From a virus: DNA of 50,689 nucleotides. Location of the stretch: positions 1-50,689 of the IMG/VR virus record IMGVR_UViG_3300033146_000748. One strand, given 5' to 3'. The notes beneath the pieces were generated by a model. It did no database searches, was not told the origin of the DNA, and saw only the letters and a list, made by a program, of their open reading frames with translations. The position numbers and the translations under genes are program-made. Below are positions 205-50,134 of the stretch, piece after piece (positions within the stretch are counted from its first letter, which is position 1; every line of letters starts with the position of its first letter).

Positions 205-212
205 TTATATTT

Positions 213-741: not shown

Positions 742-807
742 ACATTTTTATTATATTAAAGTGACTTTTTTGTATTTGAGAGTCACTAACAACTCAAATA
801 ATACTCT

Positions 808-883
808 TGGTGGAAAGTCAAGGAATCGAACCTTGTTATTCCGAGCTTCAATCGGACGCATTGACCACAATTGCTTACTTTCC
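808..883 (-). tRNA. tRNA-Phe(GAA)
   Basis: Acceptor GGAAAGT/ACTTTCC, anticodon loop TTGAAGC on TCCGA/TCGGA, T-arm CAAGG/CCTTG and encoded CCA. Confidence 0.92.
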
Positions 884-890
884 TTGAACT

Positions 891-965
891 TGGAGCCCCA
901 TGACGGATTCGAACCGCCGTCGGCTGCTTACAAGACAGCTGCTAAACCAACTCAGCTAATGGGGC
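891..965 (-). tRNA. tRNA-Thr(UGU)
   Basis: Acceptor GCCCCAT/ATGGGGC, anticodon loop CTTGTAA on GCTGT/GCAGC, T-loop TTCGAAT and encoded CCA. Confidence 0.92.
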
Positions 966-982
966 AAACTCTATTTAATTTT

Positions 983-1056
983 TGGCAGGGATAGTAGGAA
1001 TCGAACCCACATCTACTGGTTTGGAATCAGGTATTCTACCATTGAACTATATCCCT
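983..1056 (-). tRNA. tRNA-Trp(CCA)
   Basis: Acceptor AGGGATA/TATCCCT, discriminator G73 and encoded CCA resemble bacterial tRNA-Trp. The anticodon loop TTCCAAA gives anticodon CCA. The stem has an A31-C39 mismatch and an open outer pair, so the anticodon helix is weak, but no other register keeps U33. Confidence 0.82.
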
Positions 1057-1068
1057 ATATTTAATTTT

Positions 1069-1152
1069 TGGAAGAGGCTAGAGTAATCGAAACCCACGGT
1101 GTTACCCGTCCCTGGGGTTCAAGCCCAGTTTGTCACCTTGACGGTAGCCTCC
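1069..1152 (-). tRNA. tRNA-Ser(UGA)
   Basis: A class II tRNA: acceptor GGAGGCT/AGCCTCT, anticodon loop CTTGAAC on CTGGG/CCCAG, a long variable arm containing ACGG/CCGT, and encoded CCA. The T-loop TTCGATT sits on an imperfect TGGGT/ACTCT stem. Confidence 0.88.
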
Positions 1153-1165
1153 ATATATTCTTTTT

Positions 1166-1242
1166 TGGTAGGACTGATAGGAATCGAACCTACAACATTG
1201 AGATTTTGAATCTCACACCTCTTCCAATTGGGTCACAGTCCT
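1166..1242 (-). tRNA. tRNA-Leu(CAA), short variable arm
   Basis: Acceptor AGGACTG/CAGTCCT, anticodon loop TTCAAAA on TGAGA/TCTCA, variable ATGTT, T-arm GTAGG/CCTAT and encoded CCA. CAA reads UUG (Leu). Like its paralogue at 665-741 it lacks the class II variable arm expected for Leu. Confidence 0.8.
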
Positions 1243-1250
1243 ACATATTT

Positions 1251-1326
1251 TGGCAGTGCTAGGGGGAATTGAACCCGCCATCATCAGTGTGAAAGACTGA
1301 TATCCTAACCATTAGACGATAGCACC
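1251..1326 (-). tRNA. tRNA-Glu(UUC)
   Basis: Acceptor GGTGCTA/TAGCACT, anticodon loop CTTTCAC on TCAGT/ACTGA, G73 and encoded CCA. Confidence 0.92.
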
Positions 1327-1344
1327 ATATTCTATTTTATTAAA

Positions 1345-1426
1345 TCCGAGCATCAATCGACAAAAGTTCATTTGTTTATATTTCAAGTATAAGAAGTAAC
1401 TCTTATCTACGGCATCGGAAACTTTT
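1345..1426 (-). ncRNA. candidate pseudoknotted RNA between tRNA-Asp and tRNA-Glu
   Basis: Two complementary pairs cross: AAAAGTT (1426-1420) with AACTTTT (1368-1362), and TCCGA (1419-1415) with TCGGA (1349-1345). Between them is a 6-bp hairpin ATAAGA/TCTTAT (1389-1406). The order a-b-a'-b' is that of an H-type pseudoknot. The edge touches the CCA of tRNA-Asp. Function unknown; it may be only tRNA spacer. Confidence 0.35.
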
Positions 1427-1501
1427 GGCGCCCGTGACGAGGATCGAACTCGCCACAACTTGATCGACAGTCAAATATCACCACCAGGTGAACTCACGGG
1501 C
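1426..1501 (-). tRNA. tRNA-Asp(GUC)
   Basis: Acceptor GCCCGTG/CACGGGC, anticodon loop CTGTCGA on TTTGA/TCAAG, G73 and encoded CCA: a canonical tRNA-Asp. Confidence 0.92.
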
Positions 1502-1508
1502 TAAACTT

Positions 1509-1581
1509 TGGTAGCGGGTGCAGGAATCGAACCTACTATGTCGGGGATATGAACCCTAACCCCATGCCAATGACACCCGCA
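1509..1581 (-). tRNA. tRNA-Met(CAU), initiator-like features
   Basis: The anticodon loop TTCATAT gives CAU. The first base is unpaired (U1 opposite U72), followed by six good pairs GCGGGT/ACCCGC, and the anticodon stem ends in three G-C pairs (GGG/CCC). Both traits are marks of bacterial initiator tRNA. The D-region is short, total length is 73 nt with encoded CCA, and a canonical D-arm is hard to draw. tRNA-Ile with lysidine at C34 cannot be excluded. Confidence 0.78.
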
Positions 1582-1599
1582 TCAAACTTAAAATCAAAG

Positions 1600-1765
1600 A
1601 GAACAGTTTCATCATGAGAGTTTCGGTTACTCAATCGGTGGGTTTCCCCACTGAATATGACACACCTACTTTTCCATCAAGAATTTTCGGTAGTTACGTT
1701 AGAACCTTAAATTGTTATCACGCGGGATAACCAGTTCTGTCTATCCAAACCTACTTTCCTGTTCT
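1600..1765 (-). ncRNA. candidate structured RNA closed by a 7-bp helix
   Basis: Minus-strand AGAACAG (5') pairs with CTGTTCT (3') across about 150 nt. Inside are hairpin GTTATC-CCGCGT-GATAAC, hairpin GTGGG-GAAA-CCCAC with a GNRA tetraloop, hairpin GAGT-AACCGAA-ACTC, and two near-copies of GGAAAAGTAGGT. There is no ORF. The element lies between a tRNA-like gene and tRNA-Met, so it is probably co-transcribed. I do not recognise the family. Confidence 0.5.
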
Positions 1766-1775
1766 TACGATTAAG

Positions 1776-1849
1776 TATTCTAAGTTGGATTCGAACCAAC
1801 CCTTCCCCCCACTCATTAGGGGGCGTGCTACCACTACCACTACCAGAAT
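1776..1849 (-). tRNA. tRNA-like gene, anticodon unassignable, no CCA
   Basis: Acceptor ATTCTGG/TTAGAAT, D-stem GTG/CAC with GG in the loop, a C5/G5 anticodon stem and T-arm GTTGG-TTCGAAT-CCAAC are all present. The CCCCC/GGGGG stem encloses an 8-nt loop (TAATGAGT) without a standard U33-anticodon register, and the 3' end is A-CTT, not CCA. It may be degenerate or use an expanded loop. Confidence 0.55.
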
Positions 1850-1871
1850 AACTTAAAATATCTAATATTTA

Positions 1872-1951
1872 TTGGTTCTGACTTTGGTTTCAATCAAGAT
1901 TTCTAAGATCTTGTATCTTTCACCCAATGGGAGGTTTTGCCCCCGAACCAA
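1872..1951 (-). tRNA. tRNA-like element with UAG-type anticodon hairpin
   Basis: TTGGTTC and GAACCAA close an 80-nt element. It holds a perfect anticodon-type hairpin CAAGAT-CTTAGAA-ATCTTG, whose loop is identical to that of tRNA-Leu(UAG), and a GGGGG/CTCCC hairpin. No normal T-arm or CCA is seen. It is the first element behind the promoter at 1963-1991. It could be a decayed tRNA or a tRNA mimic. Confidence 0.4.
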
Positions 1952-1962
1952 CTTACAAACAC

Positions 1963-1991
1963 ATCTTACCATTTCATTATTCTATTGTCAA
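1963..1991 (-). promoter_or_regulatory. sigma70-type promoter inside the tRNA island
   Basis: TTGACA (1991-1986), 17-nt spacer, TAAGAT (1968-1963) on the minus strand. Transcription would start near 1956 and enter the tRNA-like elements, the 1600-1765 RNA, tRNA-Met, tRNA-Asp and onward. Confidence 0.75.
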
Positions 1992-2063
1992 GATGTTTTT
2001 TCAAATCATGAGGGATTTTTATTTTTTATACTCACTGAGGTAGAATCCCATAACTACTTGAGT

Positions 2064-2130
2064 TCATAATATATCCGCACCGTATCCCTTAGACTTGTCG
2101 TGGTAGTCGCCGTGATTGTCTATATTATGA
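2064..2130 (-). ncRNA. 67-nt element closed by a perfect 10-bp inverted repeat
   Basis: Arms TCATAATATA and TATATTATGA flank 47 nt that are richer in G+C than the surroundings. An internal TAGAC/GTCTA pairing overlaps the closing stem by two bases, so two folds compete. It lies between tRNA-Pro and the next promoter. Function unknown; possibly a processing or regulatory RNA. Confidence 0.4.
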
Positions 2131-2138
2131 GGTAAAAA

Positions 2139-2217
2139 TGGTCTGGGTGGTAGGTTCTGCCCCCACATCCTCCCGCTTCCAAGGCGGGCCACTTCTCTAT
2201 AATCGCTTCACACCCAG
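2139..2217 (-). tRNA. tRNA-Pro(UGG) with atypical T-loop
   Basis: Acceptor CTGGGTG/CACCCAG with C1-G72 as in bacterial tRNA-Pro, anticodon loop CTTGGAA on CCCGC/GCGGG, A73 and encoded CCA identify it. The T-stem GTGGG/CCTAC carries loop GGCAGAA in place of the near-universal TTCRANY, and the D-region has no clear stem or GG pair. The usual D-loop/T-loop contact therefore cannot form in the standard way. Confidence 0.75.
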
Positions 2218-2223
2218 ATAAAC

Positions 2224-2261
2224 TTTGAGGCTGCCCGACAACCGAGCACTCACACCCCAAA
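2224..2261 (-). ncRNA. two-tier hairpin after the interrupted tRNA-like gene
   Basis: A 7-bp helix TTTGGGG/CCTCAAA (one G-U) encloses a 5-bp helix GCTCG/CGGGC with loop GTTGT. There is no trailing T-tract, so it looks more like a processing or structural hairpin than a terminator. Confidence 0.35.
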
Positions 2262-2264
2262 CAT

Positions 2265-2396
2265 TAACTCTAATAGGATTCGAACCTATACGCTATGAAC
2301 TAAGCCCCAGTCTTCCTCATCACCTGATTTGTCAAATCTAGGCTAGGCTAAAGAGCCGAGGTCCTCCAGTGTGTCTACCTCTTTCACCATAGAGTT
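2265..2396 (-). tRNA. interrupted tRNA-like gene, Leu-type D-arm
   Basis: Acceptor strands AACTCTA and TAGAGTT, a Leu-type D-arm (GTG AAAGAGGTAGA CAC) and T-arm ATAGG-TTCGAAT-CCTAT are intact, but 81 nt separate the D-arm from the T-arm, about 48 nt more than a class II tRNA needs. Within it is a strong hairpin CCTAGATTT-GAC-AAATCAGG. No CCA follows. It may hold a small insertion or intron, or be a decayed tRNA-Leu. Confidence 0.5.
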
Positions 2397-2435
2397 AATA
2401 GATAAAAATTTCAATTACACCATCCTGATGAATTT

Positions 2436-2524
2436 TGGCTCCCCTTGTAGGAATCGAACCTACCATCGGATTTCTCACGCCAAACGGTTAACAGCCGCCT
2501 CGCCCACCTTGAGCGCTAAGGGGA
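2436..2524 (-). tRNA. tRNA-Asn(GUU) with long variable arm
   Basis: Acceptor TCCCCTT/AAGGGGA, G73, encoded CCA, anticodon loop CTGTTAA on GGCGG/CCGTT and T-arm GTAGG/CCTAC match tRNA-Asn. The variable region is about 19 nt, where tRNA-Asn normally has 5. The total length of 89 nt is class II-like. Confidence 0.82.
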
Positions 2525-2568
2525 AAACTCTTTATATAATATTAAAGTCACTTCACATTGTTAGTGTG

Positions 2569-2642
2569 TGGTTCGGGTGAGAGGAATCGAACCTCCATAG
2601 GTAGATTAAAAGTCTACTGTTCTACCACTGAACTACACCCGA
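2569..2642 (-). tRNA. tRNA-Lys(UUU)
   Basis: Acceptor TCGGGTG/CACCCGA, anticodon loop CTTTTAA on GTAGA/TCTAC, T-arm GGAGG/CCTCT and encoded CCA. Confidence 0.92.
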
Positions 2643-2829
2643 TCATTAATAACTTTAATTGGTTAAAGATACACTGTTAATTCAGAAGACTTTTCAATCT
2701 TTTACAGATACCTAGAATACTCTAACTTCAACCAATATTAAATGGTTGGCAATTTTGTCAACTCCAAAAAGAATAAATCTTTTCGAAACCCCACGGAGTG
2801 AGGAGGTTCGCCATGACCTTTTTATAATT

Positions 2830-2918
2830 TGGTGGGAGTTGGAGGATTCGAACCACTTGCCAACCGACCTTACTTTATATGACGCTGGTTTTACAGACCA
2901 GTGTAAGGAACAACTCCC
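2830..2918 (-). tRNA. tRNA-Tyr(GUA), no normal D-arm
   Basis: Acceptor GGGAGTT/AACTCCC, anticodon loop CTGTAAA on CTGGT/ACCAG, variable region starting CGTCA as in bacterial tRNA-Tyr, T-loop TTCGAAT and encoded CCA. Only 10 nt lie between the acceptor and the anticodon stem, too few for a D-arm. Instead CCTTAC pairs with GTAAGG beyond the anticodon arm, and a D-loop-like stretch CGGTTGGCAAG lies just before the T-arm. Confidence 0.7.
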
Positions 2919-2933
2919 AAACTTTTTATTTCC

Positions 2934-2992
2934 TCAAGACAAGTAAGATATTATCAAATCTCAATCATCTTGTCAATACTTTTTTTATTTTT
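2934..2992 (-). repeat. 59-bp direct repeat, copy 1 (carries a promoter)
   Basis: Identical over 59 bp to 3185-3243. Each copy contains a complete sigma70-type promoter followed upstream by an A/T tract. The copies flank the 48-residue zinc-ribbon gene. Confidence 0.9.
2948..2976 (-). promoter_or_regulatory. sigma70-type promoter for tRNA-Tyr and following tRNAs
   Basis: TTGACA (2976-2971), 17 nt, TAATAT (2953-2948). The start site would be about 20 nt upstream of tRNA-Tyr. Confidence 0.85.
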
Positions 2993-3010
2993 TATTTTTC
3001 AACCACATTT

Positions 3011-3157
3011 CTACTTATAATCTTCATTTTCAACTACTACATCATCACCACAATAAGGACAAACAACAACAATTTCTTCGTCCATGTCAGCAACAATATT
3101 ATCTTCCGTACAATCAAAAGGAACATTACAATATGGACAATGAGCAACTTGATACAT
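3011..3157 (-). CDS. 48-residue zinc-ribbon protein
   Basis: ATG at 3157 follows AAAGGAAA as ribosome-binding site. The product starts MYQVAHCPYC, has a second CPYC pair near residues 33-36, and is otherwise acidic (DMDEE, ENEDYK). Two CxxC knuckles make a small zinc ribbon, a common form for phage nucleic-acid or host-protein binding factors. It is a monocistronic unit between the two copies of the promoter repeat. No known family was recognised. Confidence 0.75.
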   Translation of the reverse strand: MYQVAHCPYCNVPFDCTEDNIVADMDEEIVVVCPYCGDDVVVENEDYK

Positions 3158-3184
3158 AATTATTTCCTTTCTAAAATCATTTCT

Positions 3185-3243
3185 TCAAGACAAGTAAGAT
3201 ATTATCAAATCTCAATCATCTTGTCAATACTTTTTTTATTTTT
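3185..3243 (-). repeat. 59-bp direct repeat, copy 2 (carries a promoter)
   Basis: A perfect copy of 2934-2992. It sits upstream of the zinc-ribbon gene and supplies its promoter. Confidence 0.9.
3199..3227 (-). promoter_or_regulatory. sigma70-type promoter for the zinc-ribbon gene
   Basis: TTGACA (3227-3222), 17-nt spacer, TAATAT (3204-3199), about 35 nt upstream of the ATG at 3157. Confidence 0.85.
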
Positions 3244-3435
3244 GACCAAACTGAGGGCTTCCATAGCTTCCCGTCATGACCTACTCACTATGGCGTGGAC
3301 AATCATATGGCTGCCACCTTTAATTATTACCCGTATCTATCCCTCATCACTATATCAGCTTTAAGTTATCAACCAATAATTAAATTCGGAATTAAGTAAC
3401 TAACTGAACCCCTTCAAGTGATTGTTTGGTCAAAA
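3240..3435 (-). ncRNA. candidate structured RNA closed by a perfect 12-bp helix
   Basis: Minus-strand TTTTGACCAAAC (3435-3424) pairs perfectly with GTTTGGTCAAAA (3251-3240), closing 172 nt. Directly inside its 3' arm, TGAGGG/CCCTCA (3346-3341 with 3257-3252) forms a second helix, and CCATAG/CTATGG (3293-3288 with 3266-3261) a third, with GGTGG/CCACGCC as a bulged helix. There is no ORF. It begins one nucleotide after tRNA-Cys. Family not recognised. Confidence 0.55.
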
Positions 3436-3436
3436 T

Positions 3437-3510
3437 TGGAGTCTCTTAACGGAATCGAACCGATACTTAGTGGGTTGCAACCACTCGCCCTACCATTAGA
3501 CTAAAGAGAC
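3437..3510 (-). tRNA. tRNA-Cys(GCA)
   Basis: Acceptor GTCTCTT/AAGAGAC, anticodon loop TTGCAAC on AGTGG/CCACT, T-loop TTCGATT, U73 as in bacterial tRNA-Cys, and encoded CCA. Confidence 0.92.
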
Positions 3511-3514
3511 ATAT

Positions 3515-3778
3515 TCAAATTTCAAATAACTTATTATCAAAGTGGTTTTTATCATCACCAACCTGATATATTAATAAAACTTCATTACCAGAAGTGCTAT
3601 AATGTATTCCAGTTCTAATACCACCTTTAGGAAAATCTAATACATTAGAACCACCATTTTTAATGGAATCAACAAAATCTTTAGCTTCTTTCAAACCTAA
3701 CTTAAAACTTTGTCGGATAAGTTTAATTGCCACAATATAATGATTTCGATGACCAATATACTTTACTTCATATTTCAT
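3515..3778 (-). CDS. small protein resembling the L7/L12 C-terminal domain
   Basis: The start is ATG 3778 (MKYEVKYIGH...), preceded by AAGGG; a longer reading would run through tRNA-Gln sequence. The 87-residue product contains IRQSFKLGLKEAKDFVD at about residues 20-36. This matches the helix-turn-helix face of ribosomal stalk protein L7/L12 (GLxLKEAKDLVE-type), the part that contacts translation GTPases. The C-terminal half is unrelated. Its location inside a tRNA cluster suggests a translation-related role, but that is inference. Confidence 0.7.
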   Translation of the reverse strand: MKYEVKYIGHRNHYIVAIKLIRQSFKLGLKEAKDFVDSIKNGGSNVLDFPKGGIRTGIHYSTSGNEVLLIYQVGDDKNHFDNKLFEI

Positions 3779-3792
3779 TATGAACCCTTTTT

Positions 3793-3868
3793 TGGCGGGG
3801 GCGGGGGGATTCGAACCCACCAATACACTCAGTCAAAGTGAGTTGCCTTTCCAGTTGGCTACGCCCCT
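3793..3868 (-). tRNA. tRNA-Gln(UUG)
   Basis: Acceptor AGGGGCG/CGCCCCC has a non-pairing A1-C72, as weak first pairs are typical of Gln. The D-stem is GCC/GGC, the anticodon loop CTTTGAC on ACTCA/TGAGT, the T-loop TTCGAAT, with G73 and encoded CCA. It overlaps the stop codon of the next gene by 2 bp. Confidence 0.88.
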
Positions 3869-4181
3869 ATAAATCAAACATTTCATCCCAATCACTTAAA
3901 TTAAGATACATAGTTTTTGTATTCAAGATAGTATCAATTGCTGGATAATTTGTCAAGGCATTTTTTACACTTTCTTCATCAACCACAATCCATTTTCCTG
4001 TGGGATACAAATTATCAACAATTGGTGGATTTCCATTATCAGTTTCTTCTACTTGAATAACAGTTACACCTTCAAACATATGACCATTACATTCTTCACA
4101 TGGTTCATAATTAGTATATATTGGTTCACCTTCTTGTCCGTTGTACTTTGGTTTATTACACCAAAAACATACATCAATCAT
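3867..4181 (-). CDS. Cys-rich phage protein of unknown function
   Basis: Start ATG 4181 (MIDVCFWCNK...), preceded by AAAGGA; upstream sequence belongs to tRNA-Arg. The 104-residue product has CxxC near residues 5-8 and CEEC near 29-32, a probable zinc-binding N-terminal half, and a C-terminal half with LYPTGKWIVV. I recall similar small proteins in other phages, without an assigned function. It lies between two tRNA genes and its TAG overlaps tRNA-Gln. Confidence 0.75.
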   Translation of the reverse strand: MIDVCFWCNKPKYNGQEGEPIYTNYEPCEECNGHMFEGVTVIQVEETDNGNPPIVDNLYPTGKWIVVDEESVKNALTNYPAIDTILNTKTMYLNLSDWDEMFDL

Positions 4182-4196
4182 AATAATCCTTTCTTT

Positions 4197-4269
4197 TGGC
4201 ACCCCCAGACTGAGTTGAACAGTCCACCTGTGGTTCGTAACCACTGAGCCAGAATCCGCTGGTGGGGGT
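4197..4269 (-). tRNA. tRNA-Arg(ACG)
   Basis: Acceptor ACCCCCA/TGGGGGT, D-stem AGC/GCT, anticodon loop TTACGAA on GTGG/CCAC, T-arm GACTG-TTCAACT-CAGTC, G73 and encoded CCA. ACG is the usual anticodon for CGN in bacteria when A34 is deaminated to inosine. Confidence 0.88.
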
Positions 4270-4290
4270 ATAATTTCGTTATCTTTTAGA

Positions 4291-4320
4291 ATAATAACAT
4301 ATACCTTTTCATTTTGTCAA
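4291..4320 (-). promoter_or_regulatory. sigma70-type promoter at the head of the tRNA island
   Basis: TTGACA (4320-4315), 18-nt spacer, TATTAT (4296-4291), about 20 nt before tRNA-Arg(ACG). Confidence 0.7.
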
Positions 4321-4342
4321 TATTTAATTTTCAAAGAACCAA

Positions 4343-4381
4343 AAAAAAGACCACTTAATTTTTATTTTAAGTGGTCTTTTT
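4343..4381 (-). terminator. bidirectional intrinsic terminator
   Basis: AAAAGACCACTTAA and TTAAGTGGTCTTTT form a 14-bp stem with an A/T loop and T-tracts on either strand. It ends the short late unit of the 37-codon ORF. Confidence 0.85.
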
Positions 4382-4414
4382 GTAAAACTTTAGTATTATT
4401 TACTACTTAGACCA

Positions 4415-18747: not shown

Positions 18748-19590
18748 TTATCCGAAAATTGATTCAATTCCTTGTTGTAAACTAATCTTTGGTTTCCAAT
18801 TTAAATCATTATATGCTTTGTTATTATCAGGAAGACGGTGATATGGTTCACCTTTTCTCCCTTCAATGTGTTTTACTTTTAAATTTGGATGATATTTTTT
18901 AACCATGTCAACAAGATCGTTAATTTTTGTTTGGATATTAACACCTAAATTATATACTTCATGTTGAATATCATCAAGACAAGACATTAAAAATAACCCA
19001 TGAACCAAATCATCTATATGAGTAAATGATCTGGTTTGATTTCCATCACCACATATCTCAAAGGTATCATCTTCTTGGACACATCGTTTTAACATAGGAA
19101 TTATTTTAGTATCATTAATATTAAAATTACCTCCATACACATTAAAAAATCTTGCAATTACCCAATCAACCTCTATTTCATTATAAAGAATATTTTCTGA
19201 TAACATTTTAGACAAAGAATAACAATTACGACTATATTTTGGATTAACAATGAGATCTTGTCCTTCAACCAACGAACCAGTATTATAACCATATACCTCT
19301 GATGTTGAAGCATAAACTAATCTACATTTATTATTCAAATTATTATTCTTAATATAATCAATTACACTTAATATACCATTTATATTACTAGAAATTATAT
19401 CTCTATATTTATTTTCAAACTCTAATGGACGAGATTCAGATGCCAAATGATATATTACATCAAATTTTATATCATCATATATAGAACTTATATCAGATAC
19501 ATCACCTTGATTGAATATAAATCTTTCTGATTGTATATTATTATAAGATTCAATTGTATTAAAAGATAATGAATTTGATAAATTATCCAA
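18748..19590 (-). CDS. NAD-epimerase/dehydratase lacking the N-terminal GxxGxxG
   Basis: An extended short-chain dehydrogenase of the UDP-glucose 4-epimerase/UDP-glucuronate decarboxylase type: VDVIYHLAS-type motif, STSEVYG, catalytic YSLSK (Tyr-x3-Lys), NVYGGN, FTHIDDLVHG and a C-terminal RKGEPYHRLPD. The first visible segment, ...VFVLDNLS, matches the end of beta2 in the family, so about 25-30 residues with the NAD-binding GxxGxxG loop are missing. The only in-frame start is TTG at 19590, and upstream codons do not restore the motif. It is either truncated or non-functional. Confidence 0.8.
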   Translation of the reverse strand: MDNLSNSLSFNTIESYNNIQSERFIFNQGDVSDISSIYDDIKFDVIYHLASESRPLEFENKYRDIISSNINGILSVIDYIKNNNLNNKCRLVYASTSEVYGYNTGSLVEGQDLIVNPKYSRNCYSLSKMLSENILYNEIEVDWVIARFFNVYGGNFNINDTKIIPMLKRCVQEDDTFEICGDGNQTRSFTHIDDLVHGLFLMSCLDDIQHEVYNLGVNIQTKINDLVDMVKKYHPNLKVKHIEGRKGEPYHRLPDNNKAYNDLNWKPKISLQQGIESIFG

Positions 19591-20266: not shown

Positions 20267-20923
20267 CTAAAAGTAAATAATATTAACTTTAAGTCTCATG
20301 TCAGAATAATTACAATCACATGTACATGAATAATTACAATTACAAGTACAATAATTACAATCACAAGTACAATAATTACAATCACAAGTACATGAATAAT
20401 TACAATGACAAGTACATGAATAATTACAATCACAAGCACATGTAGTTGCAACATCTGATTTTAATTGATCCTTCATTGCCTCCACAGTTTCATGAGTAAT
20501 TAATTCTTCAGGTGCAATTTCATTATCAGAATATGGGGATTGAACTGTACCAGAAATAACATCTATAAATAAATCTCTGATTGTTCTTATTTCAGATGTA
20601 TCAACTACACCATGTAAAACATCTATTGGTGCCCCAGCAATATTTCTTCTATCTGCTTCAACATTCAACTCATGTTGTAGTTCATCTAACTCATATTCCA
20701 AATCTATAACTTCACCAGCAATAACATCAACATTTGTATATGTTATAGTTCTTGGTCCAACATATCCCGCATGTGAAGAACATGAATTATTATGATTAAG
20801 ACAACCATTGGTTGCATTATGACTATGACATCCTGTAGTATTTGAATTTCCTTGACAACCTACTGTTGTATTATTAGAATGACACCCTACATTTCCATTA
20901 TGCCCATTACAACTACAACCCAT
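20267..20923 (-). CDS. Cys-rich repeat protein with S74-type tail
   Basis: 218 residues with about 25 cysteines in two blocks. The N-terminal block (1-50) has GC(H/Q/L)xxN repeats; residues about 60-155 are a helical middle with ordinary composition; the C-terminal block has six units of the form NY(S)CTC(D/H/N)C. The last residues, SDMRLKVNI, match the start of the S74 intramolecular chaperone of phage fibres, which normally runs another 100 residues. GGAGG precedes the ATG. It is downstream of a radical SAM gene in the same operon, so it is a candidate substrate, metal-binding protein or virion appendage. Confidence 0.75.
   Translation of the reverse strand: MGCSCNGHNGNVGCHSNNTTVGCQGNSNTTGCHSHNATNGCLNHNNSCSSHAGYVGPRTITYTNVDVIAGEVIDLEYELDELQHELNVEADRRNIAGAPIDVLHGVVDTSEIRTIRDLFIDVISGTVQSPYSDNEIAPEELITHETVEAMKDQLKSDVATTCACDCNYSCTCHCNYSCTCDCNYCTCDCNYCTCNCNYSCTCDCNYSDMRLKVNIIYF
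20305..20442 (-). repeat. tandem coding repeat of about 21-24 bp
   Basis: Six units of the AATAATTACAATCACAAGTACATG kind, differing by 3-bp indels, encode the NY(S)CTCDC repeats at the end of the Cys-rich protein. Indels keep the frame. Confidence 0.85.
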
Positions 20924-20932
20924 ACTTCCTCC

Positions 20933-21799
20933 TTAAAATTGACCAAATTCACATTCGGTAAATTTTTCTTTTGTTAAAATCCCTTTTGTTGGACTAAGAT
21001 AACGATTACCATCGAATGTAGACTTATCACATTCTAAACATCCATATTCTTGTCCTTCTCCACAAGCTAAACCACAAATAGGACGATGATATATTTTATA
21101 TAATTCTCTCATAATTGATTTATAATCTTTTTTTAATTTAAAACCAACACCATCTCCTAAATATTGATCAAGACGTTCAAAAGCAAAACTAAATGAAATT
21201 TTAATACAAGTGGGATACTTTTCAAAAATTAAAATAGCTTCTTCAACTAATTTATCCCAATTTTTTTCAGACACAGTATATGATATTCTAAATGGTCTTT
21301 TATCATGTGTCAATTTATCTATCACACTTTCAACTATCTCTTTAGAACTTGAACCATCTGGAAATGGACGTAAATCTTGTCCAATACCATCATAACTAAT
21401 TTCCAATTCCAATCTAAATCCCTTTTCATCAGACTCATCAAATAATTTTAATAATTTATCATAAAAAGATTGATTATTTAATAATACACCATTAGTTGTA
21501 AAAGTAGCATAATATTTTTTGTCTAACTTTTTAGAAGAATTTAACAAAGATTCAATTAAATATTCCAATTCAGTTATAGCTAAAGTAGGTTCTCCACCCA
21601 TGATGACAATTGTAGTTGATTTAATCTCCCCTTCTGTTGTTTCTAATTCTTCAATAAAATCATCAATCTGTTTTTTAGTAACTTCATAATGTTGGAAATC
21701 AGGTTGATTTCTTTTATTTGATTCATAACAATATTCACATTCCAAATTACATCTAGTAGTCAAATATATTATATTTGTCTTTTGGGTTTTATCACTCAT
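20933..21799 (-). CDS. radical SAM enzyme with C-terminal Cys cluster
   Basis: ATG 21799 (MSDKTQKTNIIYLTTRC) is chosen; earlier in-frame codons lie at or before the promoter start site. The CxxxCxxC for the SAM-cleaving 4Fe-4S cluster is at residues 17, 21 and 24, followed by MGGEPTL. The C-terminal 45 residues carry at least five cysteines (CGLACGEGQEYGCLEC...TECEF), fitting a SPASM or twitch auxiliary cluster as found in peptide-modifying maturases. The next gene downstream encodes the Cys-rich repeat protein, a plausible substrate. Confidence 0.88.
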   Translation of the reverse strand: MSDKTQKTNIIYLTTRCNLECEYCYESNKRNQPDFQHYEVTKKQIDDFIEELETTEGEIKSTTIVIMGGEPTLAITELEYLIESLLNSSKKLDKKYYATFTTNGVLLNNQSFYDKLLKLFDESDEKGFRLELEISYDGIGQDLRPFPDGSSSKEIVESVIDKLTHDKRPFRISYTVSEKNWDKLVEEAILIFEKYPTCIKISFSFAFERLDQYLGDGVGFKLKKDYKSIMRELYKIYHRPICGLACGEGQEYGCLECDKSTFDGNRYLSPTKGILTKEKFTECEFGQF

Positions 21800-21834
21800 T
21801 TTAATATCCACATTTTTTTTATTTTTTATCATAT

Positions 21835-21863
21835 AAAATAACACATTAACAAATAAATGTCAA
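21835..21863 (-). promoter_or_regulatory. sigma70-type promoter of the radical SAM/Cys-rich pair
   Basis: TTGACA (21863-21858), 17-nt spacer, TATTTT (21840-21835). The -10 is weaker than elsewhere in the window. Confidence 0.55.
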
Positions 21864-33044: not shown

Positions 33045-33338
33045 TTAACCTCCTGCGAAGACATCCCCTGACCCGACAGCTACCGATGAACCACAAGATA
33101 TGGGATCTCCTATTCTTCCTATTTGTTTTCCATTTACATATACCGTTGATGAACCTGATGATAATGTTGCACCGTGTGGGGGTGAACTTGGACAAGCATG
33201 TGGCGCCCATGAATCACCTTGTCTATGTACTGCTATGCTATTTACAAATACATCTCCTGATGCACCTGATGAGGGTCTTGGTGGCGCCCCACAAGGATCA
33301 CCTGTACTGTTGTCACCCAATCTAGTTACAGCTGGCAT
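33045..33338 (-). CDS. PAAR-domain tail-spike tip
   Basis: The 97-residue product begins MPAVTRLGDNSTGDPC and has repeated short Gly-Asp turns (VHRQGDSWAPHACPSSPPHG, VNGKQIGRIGDPISCG). This cone-shaped zinc-binding fold caps the central spike of contractile tails and helps pierce the host envelope. The neighbouring spike gene (gp5-like) lies beyond the inserted APS-kinase gene. Confidence 0.9.
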   Translation of the reverse strand: MPAVTRLGDNSTGDPCGAPPRPSSGASGDVFVNSIAVHRQGDSWAPHACPSSPPHGATLSSGSSTVYVNGKQIGRIGDPISCGSSVAVGSGDVFAGG

Positions 33339-34244
33339 TTAATCACCTCTTTCCACCAACAAAAAATTAATTATATCCATTGGAACATATTTACTTAATT
33401 CATCAATATTATTATCTTGAATTAATTTTCTACATTTCGTTCCTGATATACCTGCAATCTCTTTATCAACTTTTATTTCATTAATATCATAACCAACACC
33501 TCTTCCATAATTAACAGAATTAATATCAGGTATGACTATAATTTTTACATTATCATTATCCCTATAATAAAAATCTAACATTTCTTTTGTTTCATAAGCA
33601 GTAAATGGATTATTTTCATCTGGTTTAATGTCTCTTATTGCCAACATTACTTTTTTACCTTCTTCTAATTTCTGATTTATTATATAATCATGTCCATTAT
33701 GAAAAACACCATTCCACCTACCAATATACATTTCATATACATTATCATAATAACCAATATAATCTAATATATCAGTTACACATTCTTCTATTGTTTTATT
33801 AAATGTATCTAATATTAAATCTGGATTGGCTGGTGTCTCATATGGGTCTGATATACCAGTGAAATTATCAATCAATCCATCCAATGCTCTTAAATATAAT
33901 CCCTTTACATCTCGTTTGATACATTCCTCCACAGAACAATCAACAAACACTTCAATAAAATTATCTTCACCAATAATATTTTTAATCTCTTTTCTCGTTG
34001 AATTATATGGAGAAACAAATGAACAAATAACATTAGTATTCTTTACACATATCTTTGCTATTTCCGCAACCCTATATAAATTCAAATCTCTATCTTTCTT
34101 AGAAAACCCCAATCCCTTTGATATATAAGAATCTCTAATATCATCACCATCTAACACAATACCATTTATATATTTGTTCAATTCTTTTGCAATTGTCGTT
34201 TTTCCTGCTGACGGTAATCCTGTCAACCATATTACTTTATTCAT
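33339..34244 (-). CDS. APS kinase fused to a NadM-like nucleotidyltransferase
   Basis: Residues 1-160 match adenylylsulfate kinase (CysC): P-loop GLPSAGKT (9-16), DGDDIR (32-37), FVSPYNSTR (76-84), EVFVDCSVEEC and KGLYLRA...NFTGISDPYETP. Residues 165-301 match an HxGH nucleotidyltransferase: RWNGVFHNGH (176-185), NPFTAYE (212-218), VIPDIN (237-242) and ISGTKCR (266-272), the set seen in archaeal-type NMN adenylyltransferase. The fusion lies in the baseplate operon between PAAR and gp5 genes, with a tight spacing on both sides. It may make PAPS or modify a nucleotide; the exact substrate is unknown. Confidence 0.85.
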   Translation of the reverse strand: MNKVIWLTGLPSAGKTTIAKELNKYINGIVLDGDDIRDSYISKGLGFSKKDRDLNLYRVAEIAKICVKNTNVICSFVSPYNSTRKEIKNIIGEDNFIEVFVDCSVEECIKRDVKGLYLRALDGLIDNFTGISDPYETPANPDLILDTFNKTIEECVTDILDYIGYYDNVYEMYIGRWNGVFHNGHDYIINQKLEEGKKVMLAIRDIKPDENNPFTAYETKEMLDFYYRDNDNVKIIVIPDINSVNYGRGVGYDINEIKVDKEIAGISGTKCRKLIQDNNIDELSKYVPMDIINFLLVERGD

Positions 34245-34258: not shown

Positions 34259-35263
34259 TTATGGATTAAGATCTATTCTTGCACCTTTTATAGTTATATT
34301 TCCACCAGCTTCAATATGTATATTTCCACCAACAGATACAGCCCAATCTTTTCCTATTGTTTCTTTACAAGTCTGTCCTACTGTTCTTGTTTCATTGTTT
34401 CCTATATTTTCAGTCTCATCATTTCCTATTGTTGTTTTTCTATCAACATCAACTTTTATAGTTTCTTCACCTTTTATATATTTAGTTTTATCTATGTCTA
34501 TAGTTTCATTCTCATTACCAAATACATGTTTATTTTCATCTCCTTTGGTAATCATGAATCTATCACCTTCATTACGAAATACCATATTACCTTGAGCATC
34601 AATTTCTATATAAGTATTTGATGGATGAAATATATGAACTCTCTCAGCACCAACTGTACTATCTATTTCTATAGTTATACCACCATGTGTAGTTAATACT
34701 ATGTTATGTGGATATTGTGCTGCATATGGTGATTCTGGTTCATCCCATTTCTCACCTGTAGATTTCTCAACTTGAAGATCAAGATTATTATTCTTATGTT
34801 CAACTATTGTTCCTTCTGAAACTCCACGACTTAATCTATGATAATCTGGTTCATTTAATCTATCAGATCGTGGATACTTTCCTTCTGGATCATTAAACCC
34901 TTTAGATGTATCTGGTTTTTCAACTGGTAAACCTGGAACAGTAGCAAAATATCTCAAACATTCCCAATTGCCATTCTCAAAAAAACAAAATACATGTGAA
35001 CCTTTTAATGGAACAGAAAACATACCATGACCACTTACAGAACCCTCAATCAACCCCAAACATGGTTCACCCCAAGGTAAAATGTCAGTAGGAATACCTT
35101 CTTTTTGTTCTGATGACTTTAATTCATCATGTATTCCCCATATTCGTATCTTACATCTACCTAATTGTTCTGGATCATTATTATCTTCAACAACACCCCT
35201 ATATATCCCATTAAATGTTGAAATCTTTGGAGTTAAATGTTTTATATCTGTTCTTACTGCCAT
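34259..35263 (-). CDS. 5: gp5-like central spike, no lysozyme domain
   Basis: 334 residues. The N-terminal OB domain (NGIYRGVVEDNNDPEQLGRCKIRIWGIHDE...) links to a linker and then a C-terminal beta-helix of repeats (KTTIGNDETENIGNNETRTVGQTCKETIG). T4 gp5 has a lysozyme domain between them; here no such domain is seen, so the spike resembles VgrG/gp5-N-plus-C forms. It sits below gp27 and carries PAAR at its tip. Confidence 0.85.
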   Translation of the reverse strand: MAVRTDIKHLTPKISTFNGIYRGVVEDNNDPEQLGRCKIRIWGIHDELKSSEQKEGIPTDILPWGEPCLGLIEGSVSGHGMFSVPLKGSHVFCFFENGNWECLRYFATVPGLPVEKPDTSKGFNDPEGKYPRSDRLNEPDYHRLSRGVSEGTIVEHKNNNLDLQVEKSTGEKWDEPESPYAAQYPHNIVLTTHGGITIEIDSTVGAERVHIFHPSNTYIEIDAQGNMVFRNEGDRFMITKGDENKHVFGNENETIDIDKTKYIKGEETIKVDVDRKTTIGNDETENIGNNETRTVGQTCKETIGKDWAVSVGGNIHIEAGGNITIKGARIDLNP

Positions 35264-46044: not shown

Positions 46045-46866
46045 TTATATTAATAAACTACAATACTGTGGATTAGATAATCTAAACAATCTACGATTAA
46101 TCAATAATCCAAGATTATATTCAGTACAATCAAAATAAATTCTATTTGAAAAATTATGGTAGGCACAATGAATAATAACTTTATCGTCTAAATCTATGAC
46201 AGGCATCCAAGGATACATAGAACACATTTTCTGTTTTAATTTATTATATTTTTGGAGTTGATTTATACAATGATTAGCATAAGAAGTTTTTATATGAGAA
46301 AATAATTTTATTATATCATTTTTGTGATTATTGATGGATTCACGTTCTACATACATTTTCAACCAAAAATTATTCTCATTAAATATGCCAATATAATCAA
46401 AATAATCATAATTATTTAATAAGGATTTTGTTGTAACCTCATCCAAAACAATTATGTTTTTTGAATTGATACTATTCATAAAATCCATATTATAAAATTT
46501 TATAATACTTTTCCCATCAATCTTATATACCAAATGTTCATTATATACATCAACCAAATCAATAATAGTTGGATGATTATATCTCAATAATCCATTAGAC
46601 ATTAATTGAATTTTCTTTACAGATTTATATGACTTTAATAGTAATATAAAATCATCTATATTAGATATCAACCCTATTTCACCACCCGATAATTCTACAA
46701 ATAAATTATTTGAATACATACTTAATGTTTTTATACACCACTCAAAATAATCAAGATCAACTTCAAATTTATTATTATAATTCTTATTTGATTTATTAAG
46801 ATCACAATAATAACAATTTTTGTTACACTTTTTCGTTAATAAAAATTGTACATAAAATAACTTCAT
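46045..46866 (-). CDS. radical SAM enzyme 4 of the operon
   Basis: 273 residues; CxxxCxxC is at residues 14, 18 and 21 (TKKCNKNCYYCD), then ELSGGEIGL (SAM-contacting GGE). The middle is divergent from the classical barrel. The C-terminal third has cysteines (KMCSMYPW, HCAYHNF, FDCTEY, PQYCSLLI) suggesting an auxiliary Fe-S site. Its ATG overlaps the stop of the upstream +1-frame ORF (ATGA), so that frame is evidently translated. Confidence 0.85.
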   Translation of the reverse strand: MKLFYVQFLLTKKCNKNCYYCDLNKSNKNYNNKFEVDLDYFEWCIKTLSMYSNNLFVELSGGEIGLISNIDDFILLLKSYKSVKKIQLMSNGLLRYNHPTIIDLVDVYNEHLVYKIDGKSIIKFYNMDFMNSINSKNIIVLDEVTTKSLLNNYDYFDYIGIFNENNFWLKMYVERESINNHKNDIIKLFSHIKTSYANHCINQLQKYNKLKQKMCSMYPWMPVIDLDDKVIIHCAYHNFSNRIYFDCTEYNLGLLINRRLFRLSNPQYCSLLI

Positions 46867-47039
46867 ATAACACCTGTAATTGGATCTGATATATAATTAA
46901 AAATGCTACATCTTTTTTGACACCTTATTATATTTTTATAATTATCTCTAACATATTTATTATACTCATTATTATAAGCAGATTCAAATGTGACATCATT
47001 GTTATTCAAATTAATTAAATCTTTATTCTTAATACTCAT
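46863..47039 (-). CDS. SPASM C-terminal half in +1 frame (or separate small gene), copy 1
   Basis: 58 codons beginning MSIKNKDLIN; the sequence FESAYNNEYNKYVRDNYKNIIRCQKRC fits the C-terminal end of a SPASM domain (an FxxAY...EY segment and closing CxxxC). It is in the +1 frame relative to the radical SAM gene whose stop codon it overlaps. Its own stop overlaps the next gene's ATG. No ribosome-binding site stands before the ATG, so a +1 shift during translation is one possibility. Confidence 0.6.
   Translation of the reverse strand: MSIKNKDLINLNNNDVTFESAYNNEYNKYVRDNYKNIIRCQKRCSIFNYISDPITGVI
46920..47033 (-). repeat. perfect 114-bp direct repeat, copy 1
   Basis: Identical to 47876-47989. It contains the stop codon of the upstream radical SAM gene and most of the +1-frame SPASM-like segment. 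Confidence 0.95.
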
Positions 47040-47808
47040 ATTTGTCAGTATATTTACCGACCACAGGTAAAGTATCAATCAAATCAACTGAATGAATAAC
47101 AAGATTACAACATTGATGTAATTCTCCATTATCAAATATATACAACCACCGTCCATTAAACCACGGACATTTTTTTGGTGGACTTTTAATGTATTTTGAT
47201 GTTTTATACAAAAAATCTAATGTTCCATTTTTATATTTACAATCGGATGGGGAACTCAAAATACCTTGTTCATATACCATTGAATATTGTCTTAAATAAT
47301 TTTTAACACCCAAATGATAAAAAAACTGTTCCATATTTTGATTTTCATTAAATTTAAATAATATTGTTTTTACTGTTGCATATCCTCCAGCGTCAATAAA
47401 TGTTTTAAGATTATTCAAAACAGTATTCGTATTGACACCCCTATAAGGATTTACATCATTATCAATGTCATCAATGGAAAATTGAACATAATATTTTTCA
47501 GAATTACATATACTAGCCAATTCAACCCAATATTCCTTATCACGAATACCAGCATTAGTTTCCACATTAAAATTAACATTATGATGTTTTGAAATTAATA
47601 AAAATTCAAGTCCATTTTTATGATTTATAAAGTCACCATAACTACCACAAAATTCAATATGTTTTGTATATGGATATATTTTTTTAAATGTATTTAAAGA
47701 CATATCTTTATTGATATCACCAAATCCATTAAACGTATGTCTATTACAATATTTACATTTTGCATTACATTTGGAAGTTATACCCAAATTAATATTATTA
47801 AATTTCAT
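47029..47808 (-). CDS. radical SAM enzyme 3, SPASM half out of frame
   Basis: 259 residues in frame. CxxxCxxC at residues 14, 18 and 21 (TSKCNAKCKYC), FCGSYGDF in place of GGE, VETNAGIRD, YVQFSIDDID and ATVKTIL. The C-terminus has KKCPWFNGRW and NGELHQCCNL, the first SPASM cysteines; the reading then stops at TAA just inside the 114-bp repeat. The remaining SPASM cysteines are in the +1 frame (46863-47039). The start overlaps the preceding +1-frame ORF by 11 bp. Confidence 0.85.
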   Translation of the reverse strand: MKFNNINLGITSKCNAKCKYCNRHTFNGFGDINKDMSLNTFKKIYPYTKHIEFCGSYGDFINHKNGLEFLLISKHHNVNFNVETNAGIRDKEYWVELASICNSEKYYVQFSIDDIDNDVNPYRGVNTNTVLNNLKTFIDAGGYATVKTILFKFNENQNMEQFFYHLGVKNYLRQYSMVYEQGILSSPSDCKYKNGTLDFLYKTSKYIKSPPKKCPWFNGRWLYIFDNGELHQCCNLVIHSVDLIDTLPVVGKYTDKYEY

Positions 47809-48007
47809 TTAATATAATCTCTTTTTGAGGACCAAGAATATTTTTTAAAGTAATTGAAGTAGAACAAGACATTCTACACCTTATTATATTTTTATAATTA
47901 TCTCTAACATATTTATTATACTCATTATTATAAGCAGATTCAAATGTGACATCATTGTTATTCAAATTAATTAAATCTTTATTCTTAATCAGTGGAAATT
48001 GATACAT
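47798..48007 (-). CDS. SPASM C-terminal half in +1 frame (or separate small gene), copy 2
   Basis: 69 codons from ATG 48007 (MYQFPLIKNKDLIN...). The first 44 residues share an identical stretch with copy 1, ending IIRC, then diverge (RMSCSTSITLKN...). It overlaps the upstream radical SAM gene and ends 11 bp inside the next gene's start. A weak GAG precedes the ATG. Confidence 0.6.
   Translation of the reverse strand: MYQFPLIKNKDLINLNNNDVTFESAYNNEYNKYVRDNYKNIIRCRMSCSTSITLKNILGPQKEIILNEI
47876..47989 (-). repeat. perfect 114-bp direct repeat, copy 2
   Basis: Identical to 46920-47033 while the flanking radical SAM genes are clearly diverged. Separation of start points is 956 bp. Confidence 0.95.
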
Positions 48008-48761
48008 CTCTAAATGGTTCATTATATCTAAATTGGGAAGATAACATTGCAAGATTACAACATTGATGTAATTCTCCAAATTCATCAATCATCATTTTTT
48101 TATCATTAGACCAGTGACACATTTTTGTTGATCTAGTAAGATTTTTATTTGTATAAATCAAACTAACTATACCATTTGTCAATTTAGAAGACGAAGGACA
48201 AGAAAAATCACCTTCTGGTTTATATTGAAATGCATCATGTGATTTAAATACAATAACACCTATATCACGAAAATAATCAATCATCTCATCAATAGAATCT
48301 TCATTAAATTTCCAATTAATAGTCTTTACTGCAGCATATCCACCAGAATCAATAAATATTTTAAGATTGTCCAATACATTAGAAGTTCTAACTTTACGAT
48401 AAATATCATATTCATGTTTAATATCATCAATAGAAAATTGAACATAACCATTAGGATTTTTAGATGAAAGTTTTCCAAAAGTTTTCCAATATATTTTATC
48501 TCTAATACCAGCATTAGTTTCTATTATAAATTTTTTATTATGTATATTTAATGTTTCTACCAATTCCAATCCATTAGGTATAGTAACAAAATCACCCCAT
48601 AAACCAATAAATTCAATTCTATCAAAATAATCAATAAATTTTAACAGTGTAGTATTTTTTAAATAAATATTATAAGGAACTTTATTTGTCATATTCCTAA
48701 AACAATCCCAACAACCAGCATTACAATTAGTAGATACCCCAACAGTAACAGAATTCAACAT
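47985..48761 (-). CDS. radical SAM enzyme 2, SPASM half out of frame
   Basis: 258 residues, paralogous to the gene at 47029: CxxxCxxC at residues 13, 17 and 20 (STNCNAGCWDC), FIGLWGDF, IETNAGIRD, YVQFSIDDIK and AAVKTINWKF. The C-terminus has TKMCHWSND and FGELHQCCNL, then stops at TAA within the start of the 114-bp repeat. Start ATG overlaps the upstream B12-type gene by 7 bp. Confidence 0.85.
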   Translation of the reverse strand: MLNSVTVGVSTNCNAGCWDCFRNMTNKVPYNIYLKNTTLLKFIDYFDRIEFIGLWGDFVTIPNGLELVETLNIHNKKFIIETNAGIRDKIYWKTFGKLSSKNPNGYVQFSIDDIKHEYDIYRKVRTSNVLDNLKIFIDSGGYAAVKTINWKFNEDSIDEMIDYFRDIGVIVFKSHDAFQYKPEGDFSCPSSSKLTNGIVSLIYTNKNLTRSTKMCHWSNDKKMMIDEFGELHQCCNLAMLSSQFRYNEPFRDVSISTD

Positions 48762-50134
48762 AATTCAAATCCTTTATTTCTAGCAATATTATTTTTATCT
48801 ATAAGCAACTCCAAATTAGGATCATGATTGTTTTTATATTTAAGAATCAAATTATAGTCTATATTAAAATAATCCTTAAATATAATAGGTTCAACATGTT
48901 TTATGTCATAAATCAATTCATTTTTACTTATATCTTCTGGTACTACATATTGGAACGAATTTAATTTAAAAAACTTATTATTACCAACAATTTTTAATAT
49001 TCTAATCAGATCAATAAAATCTGACATTTCCTCTTGAAAAAAATTATATATAATACCATAACCAACATTATTATATTTTGGATTAATTATTAATTTTAAA
49101 TTCATTTCCCTTGTAGTTGGCTTATTCATCAACTTCAAAATCTTATCTGAAAAATGTTCAACACCTACATAAAATAAACTTCCCGTAAACTTACATAACA
49201 AATCAGAATTATTAAGATATTGTGGTGTTGTTAAATGAACTATATTAAATTTAATTTCATTACCAAAATTATTATATATATTACCAAAAAAATACTGGAT
49301 CTCTTCATCAGTATAAAATGGCAAAGATGAAATACAAAAATTACTATCAATGTTATATTTTTTATTAATAAATCCAATTCTATCTATAACTTCATCAAGA
49401 TGATCATAATTTAATTTAAGATTATTACCTTTATTTTGTGTACAAAATGTACACTTATATGGACACAATGTATGAAAAGAAAAATTATATTGTTTATTTT
49501 TTAACTCAATGTCAGATAATCCAGAATTAAATGAATCCAAAAATTCTTTTTTGTAATATAAACCTTCACTATAACCAGAAGAATCTAATTTATTTTCAAA
49601 AAAATCATCCAAAAAGTTTTCACCATGACCAACAAATACATAATCAGAAAATTCTTCCTTCATAAAAATATATTTTAAATGTGGCTTAAACTCCTTTTCC
49701 TTACCAAAACATATTTTTATTCTACTTCTTTTTTTTATCTCATAAGCAAAGTATAATTGAAAAAATTCAAGATCCTCAAAAGAACGTATAAAAACCCATT
49801 CAGGATTTATATTCACTACCTGTTCTACCATTTTATCTATAATTTTAATCTTATTTTTAAATTTTATCCAATCAACATCATAAGATAAATCACATGAAAC
49901 TTTATTATAATCACATTCAAATGAATTATAACCTGATTTTATAAAAGAATGTACGAAAAATAAAGATAGAGTTGAAATAACTCTATTATTATTTTCATAC
50001 CCAATTAAACATTCCAACAAATCTGAAATATTCAAAAAATCGAAGGGAATTAAATCAACATCATATTTCTTCGTATAATTATAAAAGGATTTATATGCAC
50101 CATTAATAATAGTAGGAGTATAAATTATCTTCAT
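48755..50134 (-). CDS. B12-binding-domain-type radical SAM enzyme
   Basis: 459 residues. The N-terminal 200 residues have a Rossmann-like pattern (IIYTPTIING..., EWVFIRSFEDLEF, YVFVGHGENFLDDFF), as in cobalamin-binding-like radical SAM proteins, but the cobalamin-ligand DxHxxG is not seen. The CxxxCxxC is at residues 224, 228 and 231 (CPYKCTFCTQN). Later YVGVEHFSDKILKLMNK is a family-typical GxEsxsd...lnK stretch. ATG overlaps the upstream stop (ATGA). Possible functions are methyl transfer or ring chemistry. Confidence 0.8.
   Translation of the reverse strand: MKIIYTPTIINGAYKSFYNYTKKYDVDLIPFDFLNISDLLECLIGYENNNRVISTLSLFFVHSFIKSGYNSFECDYNKVSCDLSYDVDWIKFKNKIKIIDKMVEQVVNINPEWVFIRSFEDLEFFQLYFAYEIKKRSRIKICFGKEKEFKPHLKYIFMKEEFSDYVFVGHGENFLDDFFENKLDSSGYSEGLYYKKEFLDSFNSGLSDIELKNKQYNFSFHTLCPYKCTFCTQNKGNNLKLNYDHLDEVIDRIGFINKKYNIDSNFCISSLPFYTDEEIQYFFGNIYNNFGNEIKFNIVHLTTPQYLNNSDLLCKFTGSLFYVGVEHFSDKILKLMNKPTTREMNLKLIINPKYNNVGYGIIYNFFQEEMSDFIDLIRILKIVGNNKFFKLNSFQYVVPEDISKNELIYDIKHVEPIIFKDYFNIDYNLILKYKNNHDPNLELLIDKNNIARNKGFELC

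Follow-up and report, generated by a model that had tools for sequence, protein, structure and literature searches.

The window, a viral record of 50,689 bases on a single contig, encodes a 301-residue protein that is probably a compact bifunctional PAPS synthetase, carried as cargo, in which an APS kinase (CysC) is fused to a nucleotidyltransferase (NTase) representing a third class of ATP sulfurylase. Textbooks assign the activation of sulfate to two enzymes with no relation to each other, Sat and CysDN. The broader proposal, which is probable, is that a third, unrecognised and NadM-like class of ATP sulfurylase has displaced CysD/CysN or Sat, has become joined to APS kinase in either domain order and, in phages, provides the PAPS that their sulfotransferases use, with the window gene as its minimal PAPS synthetase. 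The C-terminal NTase would transfer AMP from ATP to sulfate, yielding APS and pyrophosphate, and the N-terminal CysC domain would then phosphorylate the 3'-hydroxyl of APS to produce PAPS. Since APS formation is energetically uphill and depends on the kinase to draw it forward, fusion or tight coupling of the two activities would be helpful. Sulfotransferases, encoded in related phages within the same operon and often beside nucleotide-sugar genes, would consume the PAPS, with a sulfated glycan as the likely end product; the NTase family would thus stand beside Sat and CysD/CysN in both bacteria and phages. An ATP sulfurylase function is the best reading of the genetic context, namely the linkage of kinase and NTase genes, their sulfotransferase neighbours and the replacement of CysD, and these three lines strongly favour PAPS synthesis over the other options offered by an earlier sequence-only reading of this DNA.

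The gene (33339-34244, minus strand) is an uninterrupted open reading frame with an ATG start, and the AlphaFold2 model of the whole protein had a mean pLDDT of 91.2. A full-length copy, 87% identical and in the same slot between spike and PAAR genes, is present in a second viral contig (L001), and hence the fusion gene is not a chance occurrence. The existence of a kinase-NTase fusion, as first read from the letters, is confirmed by the single open frame, by kinase profile matches over their cut-offs and by the NTase motifs. An APS kinase and a domain of the adenylyltransferase superfamily in one chain constitute the architecture of a PAPS synthetase, the second domain being of a family other than Sat.

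The N-terminal domain (residues 3-163; 33756-34238, minus strand) is an APS kinase by family and fold, and would be expected to catalyze the corresponding reaction. It matched Pfam APS_kinase PF01583 (E 3.6e-47; 160.7 bits, cut-off 21.1) and NCBIfam apsK TIGR00455 (170.8 bits, equivalog-domain cut-off 138.7), as well as the sequences of APS kinases of known structure with up to 151 bits. Every one of the key CysC motifs claimed for it earlier was found: the P-loop GLPSAGKTT (residues 9-17; 34194-34220, minus strand; aligned to 2gks), DGDDIR, GFSKKDRDLN, SFVSPY and RDVKGLY...FTGISDPYE. The APS-kinase fold extends over the whole domain (pLDDT by block, 87-98), and APS kinases were the best matches in a structure search with the full model, with 5cb6 giving a Z score of 27.0 (rmsd 1.4, 165 residues aligned); identity with 2gks was 50% over the structural alignment. 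Campylobacter-type phosphoramidate activation also uses an APS-kinase-like kinase; this candidate was dropped, as the domain scored 97.2 against PRK05541/NF004041, a model taken here to describe a possible CDP-phosphoramidate kinase type, under its cut-off of 127. Two types of kinase occur beside NTases in the viral loci, the complete CysC and a shorter version of ~145 residues without the RDxKGLY lid.

The C-terminal domain (residues 169-299; 33348-33740, minus strand), delimited from alignments, its model and Foldseek, is the proposed ATP sulfurylase. It carries the HxGH, NPFTA, PDIN and SGTxxR motifs that were described earlier and, judged by sequence, belongs to a large, unnamed family in phages and many bacteria, with domains of about 110-150 residues (~130 in the window) and the pattern IGRxQPxHxGH ... 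RD ... NPF ... PDIxSVNYGRGVGY ... SxTxxR. A search from an alignment of the NTase and its relatives identified at least 538 stretches of viral contigs encoding members, of which 80 loci were kept as the viral analysis set (some are near-duplicates, and L012 and L001 represent one contig), together with 96 relatives in cellular genome contigs, 80 of them kept. Members of the family occur in Bacteroidota, Marinimicrobia, Dadabacteria, Omnitrophota, Nitrospirae, Planctomycetota and other groups, as well as in hundreds of uncultured phages. With isolated phages, the NTase signature was found in five Stenotrophomonas, Xanthomonas and Clavibacter records only; the remaining matches had NMNAT/Nudix or cytidyltransferase annotations, or involved the kinase part alone.

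Among 70 viral and cellular members, residues G7, R8, H14, G16, H17, R36, P45, P71, D72, G79, R80, G83, Y84, S99 and R104 are invariant (domain numbering; 168 is added for the ORF position). These include both His and the Gly of the nucleotide-binding motif HNGH (HxGH; residues 182-185; 33690-33701, minus strand), the Ser and Arg of SGTKCR (SxTxxR; residues 267-272; 33429-33446, minus strand), in which the Thr is nearly so, and G79, R80, G83 and Y84 of the signature YGRGVGY (residues 246-252; 33489-33509, minus strand), the likely acceptor loop. The invariant Arg36 (Arg204 of the ORF) is aligned with Gly in NMNATs, as read from the alignment. Arg204 and the YGRGVGY loop might be speculated to hold the sulfate, the loop being poorly modelled (pLDDT <50 at residues 246-248 of the full model). 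In a tree of the 70 sequences, viral and cellular members are interleaved, and the window protein clusters with other fused forms at a support of only 0.69, too low for a firm claim.

Genes for the two activities are closely linked. An APS-kinase-like ORF was present in the flanks of the NTase in 58 of the 80 viral loci; when these loci were reduced to 21 clusters at 75% identity, the representatives comprised two fusions, 13 pairs separated by 50 bp or less, four pairs at 218-432 bp and two loci with no kinase. In cellular genomes, a kinase lay near the NTase in 50 of 80 loci, including 13 fusions, nine of them NTase-first and four kinase-first; the occurrence of both domain orders implies at least two separate fusion events. 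Where linked, the two genes commonly overlap or are fused. The sequence-only reading had named separation of the domains into two genes in relatives as a refutation; they are indeed usually encoded by separate, overlapping genes, but this arrangement, rather than refuting the proposal, strengthens the functional link. The 22 viral loci with no kinase near the NTase, including L038, L053 and L084, count against the PAPS reading, and a query with the short kinase detected a kinase elsewhere in just one of these 22 contigs; such NTases either use a host kinase or make a product with another fate. Genes for peptide deformylase and for carbamoyltransferase-like and sigma-factor-like proteins were seen by eye near the NTase in three of the kinase-less viral loci. 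On a 122-kb viral contig (L003:5932-7351), the APS kinase carries what by eye is a C-terminal HAD-like phosphatase domain, possibly a PAP- or APS-handling phosphatase, and is followed by a distinct NTase gene; the kinase ORFs of L017, L030, L039, L043 and L048 (315-329 residues) resemble it in size.

The neighbours of these genes point to the use of PAPS in sulfation. Sulfotransfer_3 exceeded its cut-off in 10 of 37 whole contigs and lay no more than about 3 kb from the NTase in eight of the ten, and sulfotransferase seeds taken from eight loci identified relatives in 23 of the 80 viral loci. The gene order is sulfotransferase, kinase, NTase in L042 and L045, the genes overlapping or lying a few bases apart, while in L070 a sulfotransferase gene precedes a fused kinase-NTase gene. 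Sulfotransferases were also the commonest Pfam neighbours, accounting for 9 of 100 viral ORFs and 8 of 112 cellular ORFs (PF13469; with PF19798 in three), these tallies being slightly raised by the manual inclusion of L042, L070 and L120, loci in which a sulfotransferase-like gene was already known, and by one L120 ORF lying beyond the nearest three. They draw on the nearest ORFs at 25 viral loci and 26 cellular ones, mostly cluster representatives with L042, L070, L058, L048, L017 and L120 added by hand; 100 of 131 viral and 112 of 146 cellular ORFs were submitted, mainly short or very long ones being dropped. Single checks revealed Sulfotransfer_5 in L133, Sulfotransfer_3 in L102 and L094 and Sulfotransfer_1 in L110, and no sulfotransferase match among the scanned neighbours in L118 and L022. 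Adjoining the kinase-NTase fusion of L118 is a 623-residue protein (2541-4409) with a Nudix domain near its C-terminus and an N-terminus that by eye resembles the PAPS-binding motif of sulfotransferases, for which Pfam gave no sulfotransferase match.

The association was also scanned in reverse. Of 382 relatives of phage sulfotransferases, 80 loci were kept; both kinase and NTase were present in 29, the kinase only in two, the NTase only in none and neither in 49, and many phage sulfotransferases presumably use the PAPS of their host. In the Flavobacteriales locus L120, a gene for CysQ, the PAP phosphatase (258.9 bits, cut-off 228.8), comes after the pair. Nucleotide-sugar epimerase and dehydrogenase genes also adjoin the phage kinase and NTase genes, which suggests sulfated glycans as the product. 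The reduction of PAPS was considered as a further use in these phages and was unsupported, as PAPS reductase PF01507 was over its cut-off in none of the 37 contigs.

Replacement of the known ATP sulfurylases is apparent in cellular genomes. Fifty NTase genomes, representing 50 of the 80 cellular loci, were searched; APS kinase was present in 49, Sat in five and CysD over its cut-off in two, with strong sub-threshold CysD matches in two more. The pattern of a gap-filling enzyme, APS kinase present with neither Sat nor a strong CysD match, was found in 41 of the 50 (39 if two with faint CysD-like matches are excluded) and in all six NTase genomes of a single order, that of the L120 genome. Among the 196 genomes of this order, which provided a base rate, the NTase was found in six, a clear APS kinase (E of at most 1e-28, lesser matches being disregarded) in 85, CysD (1e-40 or better) in 127 and Sat in none. 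The 85 APS-kinase genomes divide into 79 with CysD and six with the NTase, with no genome that has both or that lacks both (Fisher p 2.3e-9, a value that overstates independence since five of the six NTase genomes were seeds of the scan and all are of one order); recurrence of the pattern across phyla is the better argument. The start of CysD is 1.5 kb or less from the kinase in 60 of the 79 genomes, and the NTase adjoins the kinase in six of six. Three NTase genomes of Nitrospiraceae/Nitrospirales, which also carry Sat in frame with APS kinase elsewhere, count against replacement. Two Nitrospiraceae loci (L096 and L097), from genomes also having Sat and APS kinase, have the NTase near a gene in which sulfite/nitrite reductase and TusA are joined (Pfam on the L097 copy). 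Binning errors in metagenome-assembled genomes could misplace some of the cellular loci, but one Dadabacteria match, L171, sits in a chromosome record of 1.59 Mb.

The affinities of the NTase itself lie elsewhere. Library profiles matched it weakly (CTP_transf_like, E 0.0082; NadM-type models, E about 6e-6), and a profile of 70 relatives matched NMNATs of known structure with a best E of 1e-9; its first half, with the ATP-site motifs, aligns with NMNATs, while VNYGRGVGY is found in the second half, which is shorter. The fusion protein gave no match to the Sat catalytic domain PF01747 (Pfam, E up to 1), and CysD TIGR02039 was absent from the best 25 of its 28 NCBIfam matches (E up to 1), those listed being P-loop kinases and HxGH NTases. 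The structure search with the full model was dominated by kinases and carried little information on the NTase, which was therefore modelled separately (mean pLDDT 89.5). Foldseek ranked NMNAT 1m8g first (E 2.7e-4, TMq 0.73) and the archaeal ATP sulfurylase 8a8g lower (E 2e-2), and VIA-align placed CoaD (Z 13.5, rmsd 3.6, 124 residues) and NMNAT (Z 13.4, rmsd 3.1, 129 residues) about level; a Sat-type ATP sulfurylase did not figure in the 50 rows listed, which is no evidence against likeness. The precedence of NMNAT over ATP sulfurylase and the tie between CoaD and NMNAT, obtained with a predicted model, would count against sulfate as the acceptor.

Hence, the NTase could be argued to adenylylate a different acceptor, such as another oxyanion or a small phosphorylated metabolite, with the kinase phosphorylating the 3' position of the adenylyl product. 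The same logic operates in CoA synthesis, where CoaD is followed by dephospho-CoA kinase, and the NTase matches no known ATP sulfurylase family and is structurally closest to NMNAT and CoaD. However, this alternative is unlikely given a kinase that exceeds the APS-kinase cut-off, the sulfotransferase and CysQ neighbours and the replacement of CysD next to CysC. The sequence-only reading correctly set the motifs apart from those of ATP sulfurylase; as an argument against sulfate, the observation fails, for it seems to be the novelty of the family.

Much less likely still is that the NTase is an NMN adenylyltransferase making NAD, for phage supply or counter-defence, with the kinase either carried along independently or acting as a nicotinamide riboside kinase. 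The nearest matches in both sequence and fold are indeed NadM-type NMNATs, and in Stenotrophomonas phage Bhz60 a short kinase-NTase fusion (L007:5565-6741) immediately follows a NADAR gene, a hint of NAD chemistry; an annotated cysteine dioxygenase gene is found some genes upstream of that fusion. Nevertheless, the scores with NadM TIGR01527 were 22.3 bits for the window and 36-46 in six relatives against an equivalog cut-off of 181.2, with matches that stop near the middle of the profile, the kinase is an APS kinase, and both the sulfotransferase linkage and the replacement of CysD would be left unexplained. Adenylylation of a nicotinamide metabolite, one of the options offered earlier, is thus disfavoured by family scores far under the NMNAT cut-offs; with CoaD TIGR01510 (cut-off 103.3), the NTase relatives scanned reached at most 26.2.

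The reverse order of reaction was also considered, in which the kinase would act first on a small alcohol and the NTase would then make a nucleotide-activated headgroup, of the Kennedy or NadR type, to decorate the phage or host surface. The location of phage NTase and kinase genes near those for nucleotide-sugar epimerases and dehydrogenases would accord with such a role, but it is highly improbable, as the full kinase retains every APS-kinase motif, including the RDVKGLY-FTG lid, its closest relatives of known structure include complexes with APS, and the replacement of CysD stands against it.

PAPS synthesis thus remains the preferred reading, and the location of the window gene can be considered separately. 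It lies inside a T4-like baseplate operon, between genes for a PAAR protein downstream (33045-33338, minus strand; phrog_281, E 7.3e-29) and a gp5-like baseplate hub/spike protein upstream (34259-35263, minus strand; phrog_430, E 1.9e-74), flanks that bear out the placement given by the sequence-only reading. The survey of gene order in relatives that it had called for was conducted: the kinase-NTase pair recurs, and the insertion between spike and PAAR is common to the window and L001 only, other phages carrying the module elsewhere. In four more distant relatives of the spike (L177-L180), the gene that follows it is PAAR, and neither kinase nor NTase intervenes (a gap of ~170 bp in L178 and L179), and a baseplate function was rejected on this basis; no PAAR match was found in the stretch examined of a further spike locus, L181. 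The position looks like that of cargo, and it lends no support to the earlier suggestion of an activated substrate used to decorate the virion. That the protein is a structural or decayed component of the baseplate operon, as its spike-PAAR position here and in L001 might imply, is scarcely credible with all of its catalytic motifs intact, a full-length copy at 87% identity in L001 and NTase motif residues invariant or nearly so in 70 relatives.

A sulfotransferase was not found in the window, using two HMMs on all ORFs of at least 60 residues and Pfam on 30 ORFs; a sugar-nucleotide epimerase is encoded at 18748-19590. The record may be a fragment, with the consumer of PAPS elsewhere or in the host. 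Sixteen predicted tRNA genes of 15 amino-acid identities lie at one end of it (129-3868, minus strand). Four successive radical-SAM-like genes are located at 46045-50134 (minus strand), and amid them two small overlapping ORFs repeat INLNNNDVTFESAYNNEYNKYVRDNYKNIIRC, as if a cassette had been duplicated. Another radical SAM gene (20933-21844) has directly downstream a gene for a cysteine-rich protein with repeated CDCNYSCTC-like units, and the two (20267-21844, minus strand) could be a modified-peptide pair.

If the proposal is correct, many marine and uncultured bacteria scored as being without sulfate activation do possess it, and pathway tools that rely on Sat and CysD mis-call them; hundreds of phages would make their own PAPS rather than take that of the host, and phage cysC genes and phage sulfotransferases would acquire a concrete role. 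One source lists cysC as an aquatic viral gene that was not validated (PMC12713726), and another describes phage sulfotransferases as known and their function as unclear (PMC10580990). Among openly licensed PMC papers, none was found that describes the NTase family as an ATP sulfurylase or reports the kinase-NTase fusion.

The fusion most resembles the Sat-CysC proteins and human PAPSS1 (2gks and 1x6v) in joining an APS kinase to an NTase of the HxGH superfamily, and the proposed overall reaction is shared; unlike them, its NTase is NadM-like rather than Sat and only ~130 residues in length, within a protein of 301 residues as opposed to 546-630. Compared with the CysC and CysD/CysN system, the NTase takes the place beside CysC that is held by CysD in related genomes. 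CysD, a member of the PAPS-reductase-like family that works with a GTPase, is nonetheless unrelated to the HxGH NTase. The NadM NMNATs (1m8g, 1f9a and 2qjo) share its fold and the motifs IGRxQPxHxGH, NPFT and SxTxxR, whereas the window NTase is under the family cut-offs, has a shortened C-terminal half, and bears the VNYGRGVGY loop and an invariant Arg after strand 2 in place of the NadM residues. Finally, phrog_10255, a 'kinase' of the Stenotrophomonas/Xanthomonas phages DLP_6 and Bhz60, is likewise a fused kinase-NTase, with the signature YGRDVGY, but is distinguished by a short kinase without the RDxKGLY lid, a length of about 245 residues and a different gene context (NADAR in Bhz60).
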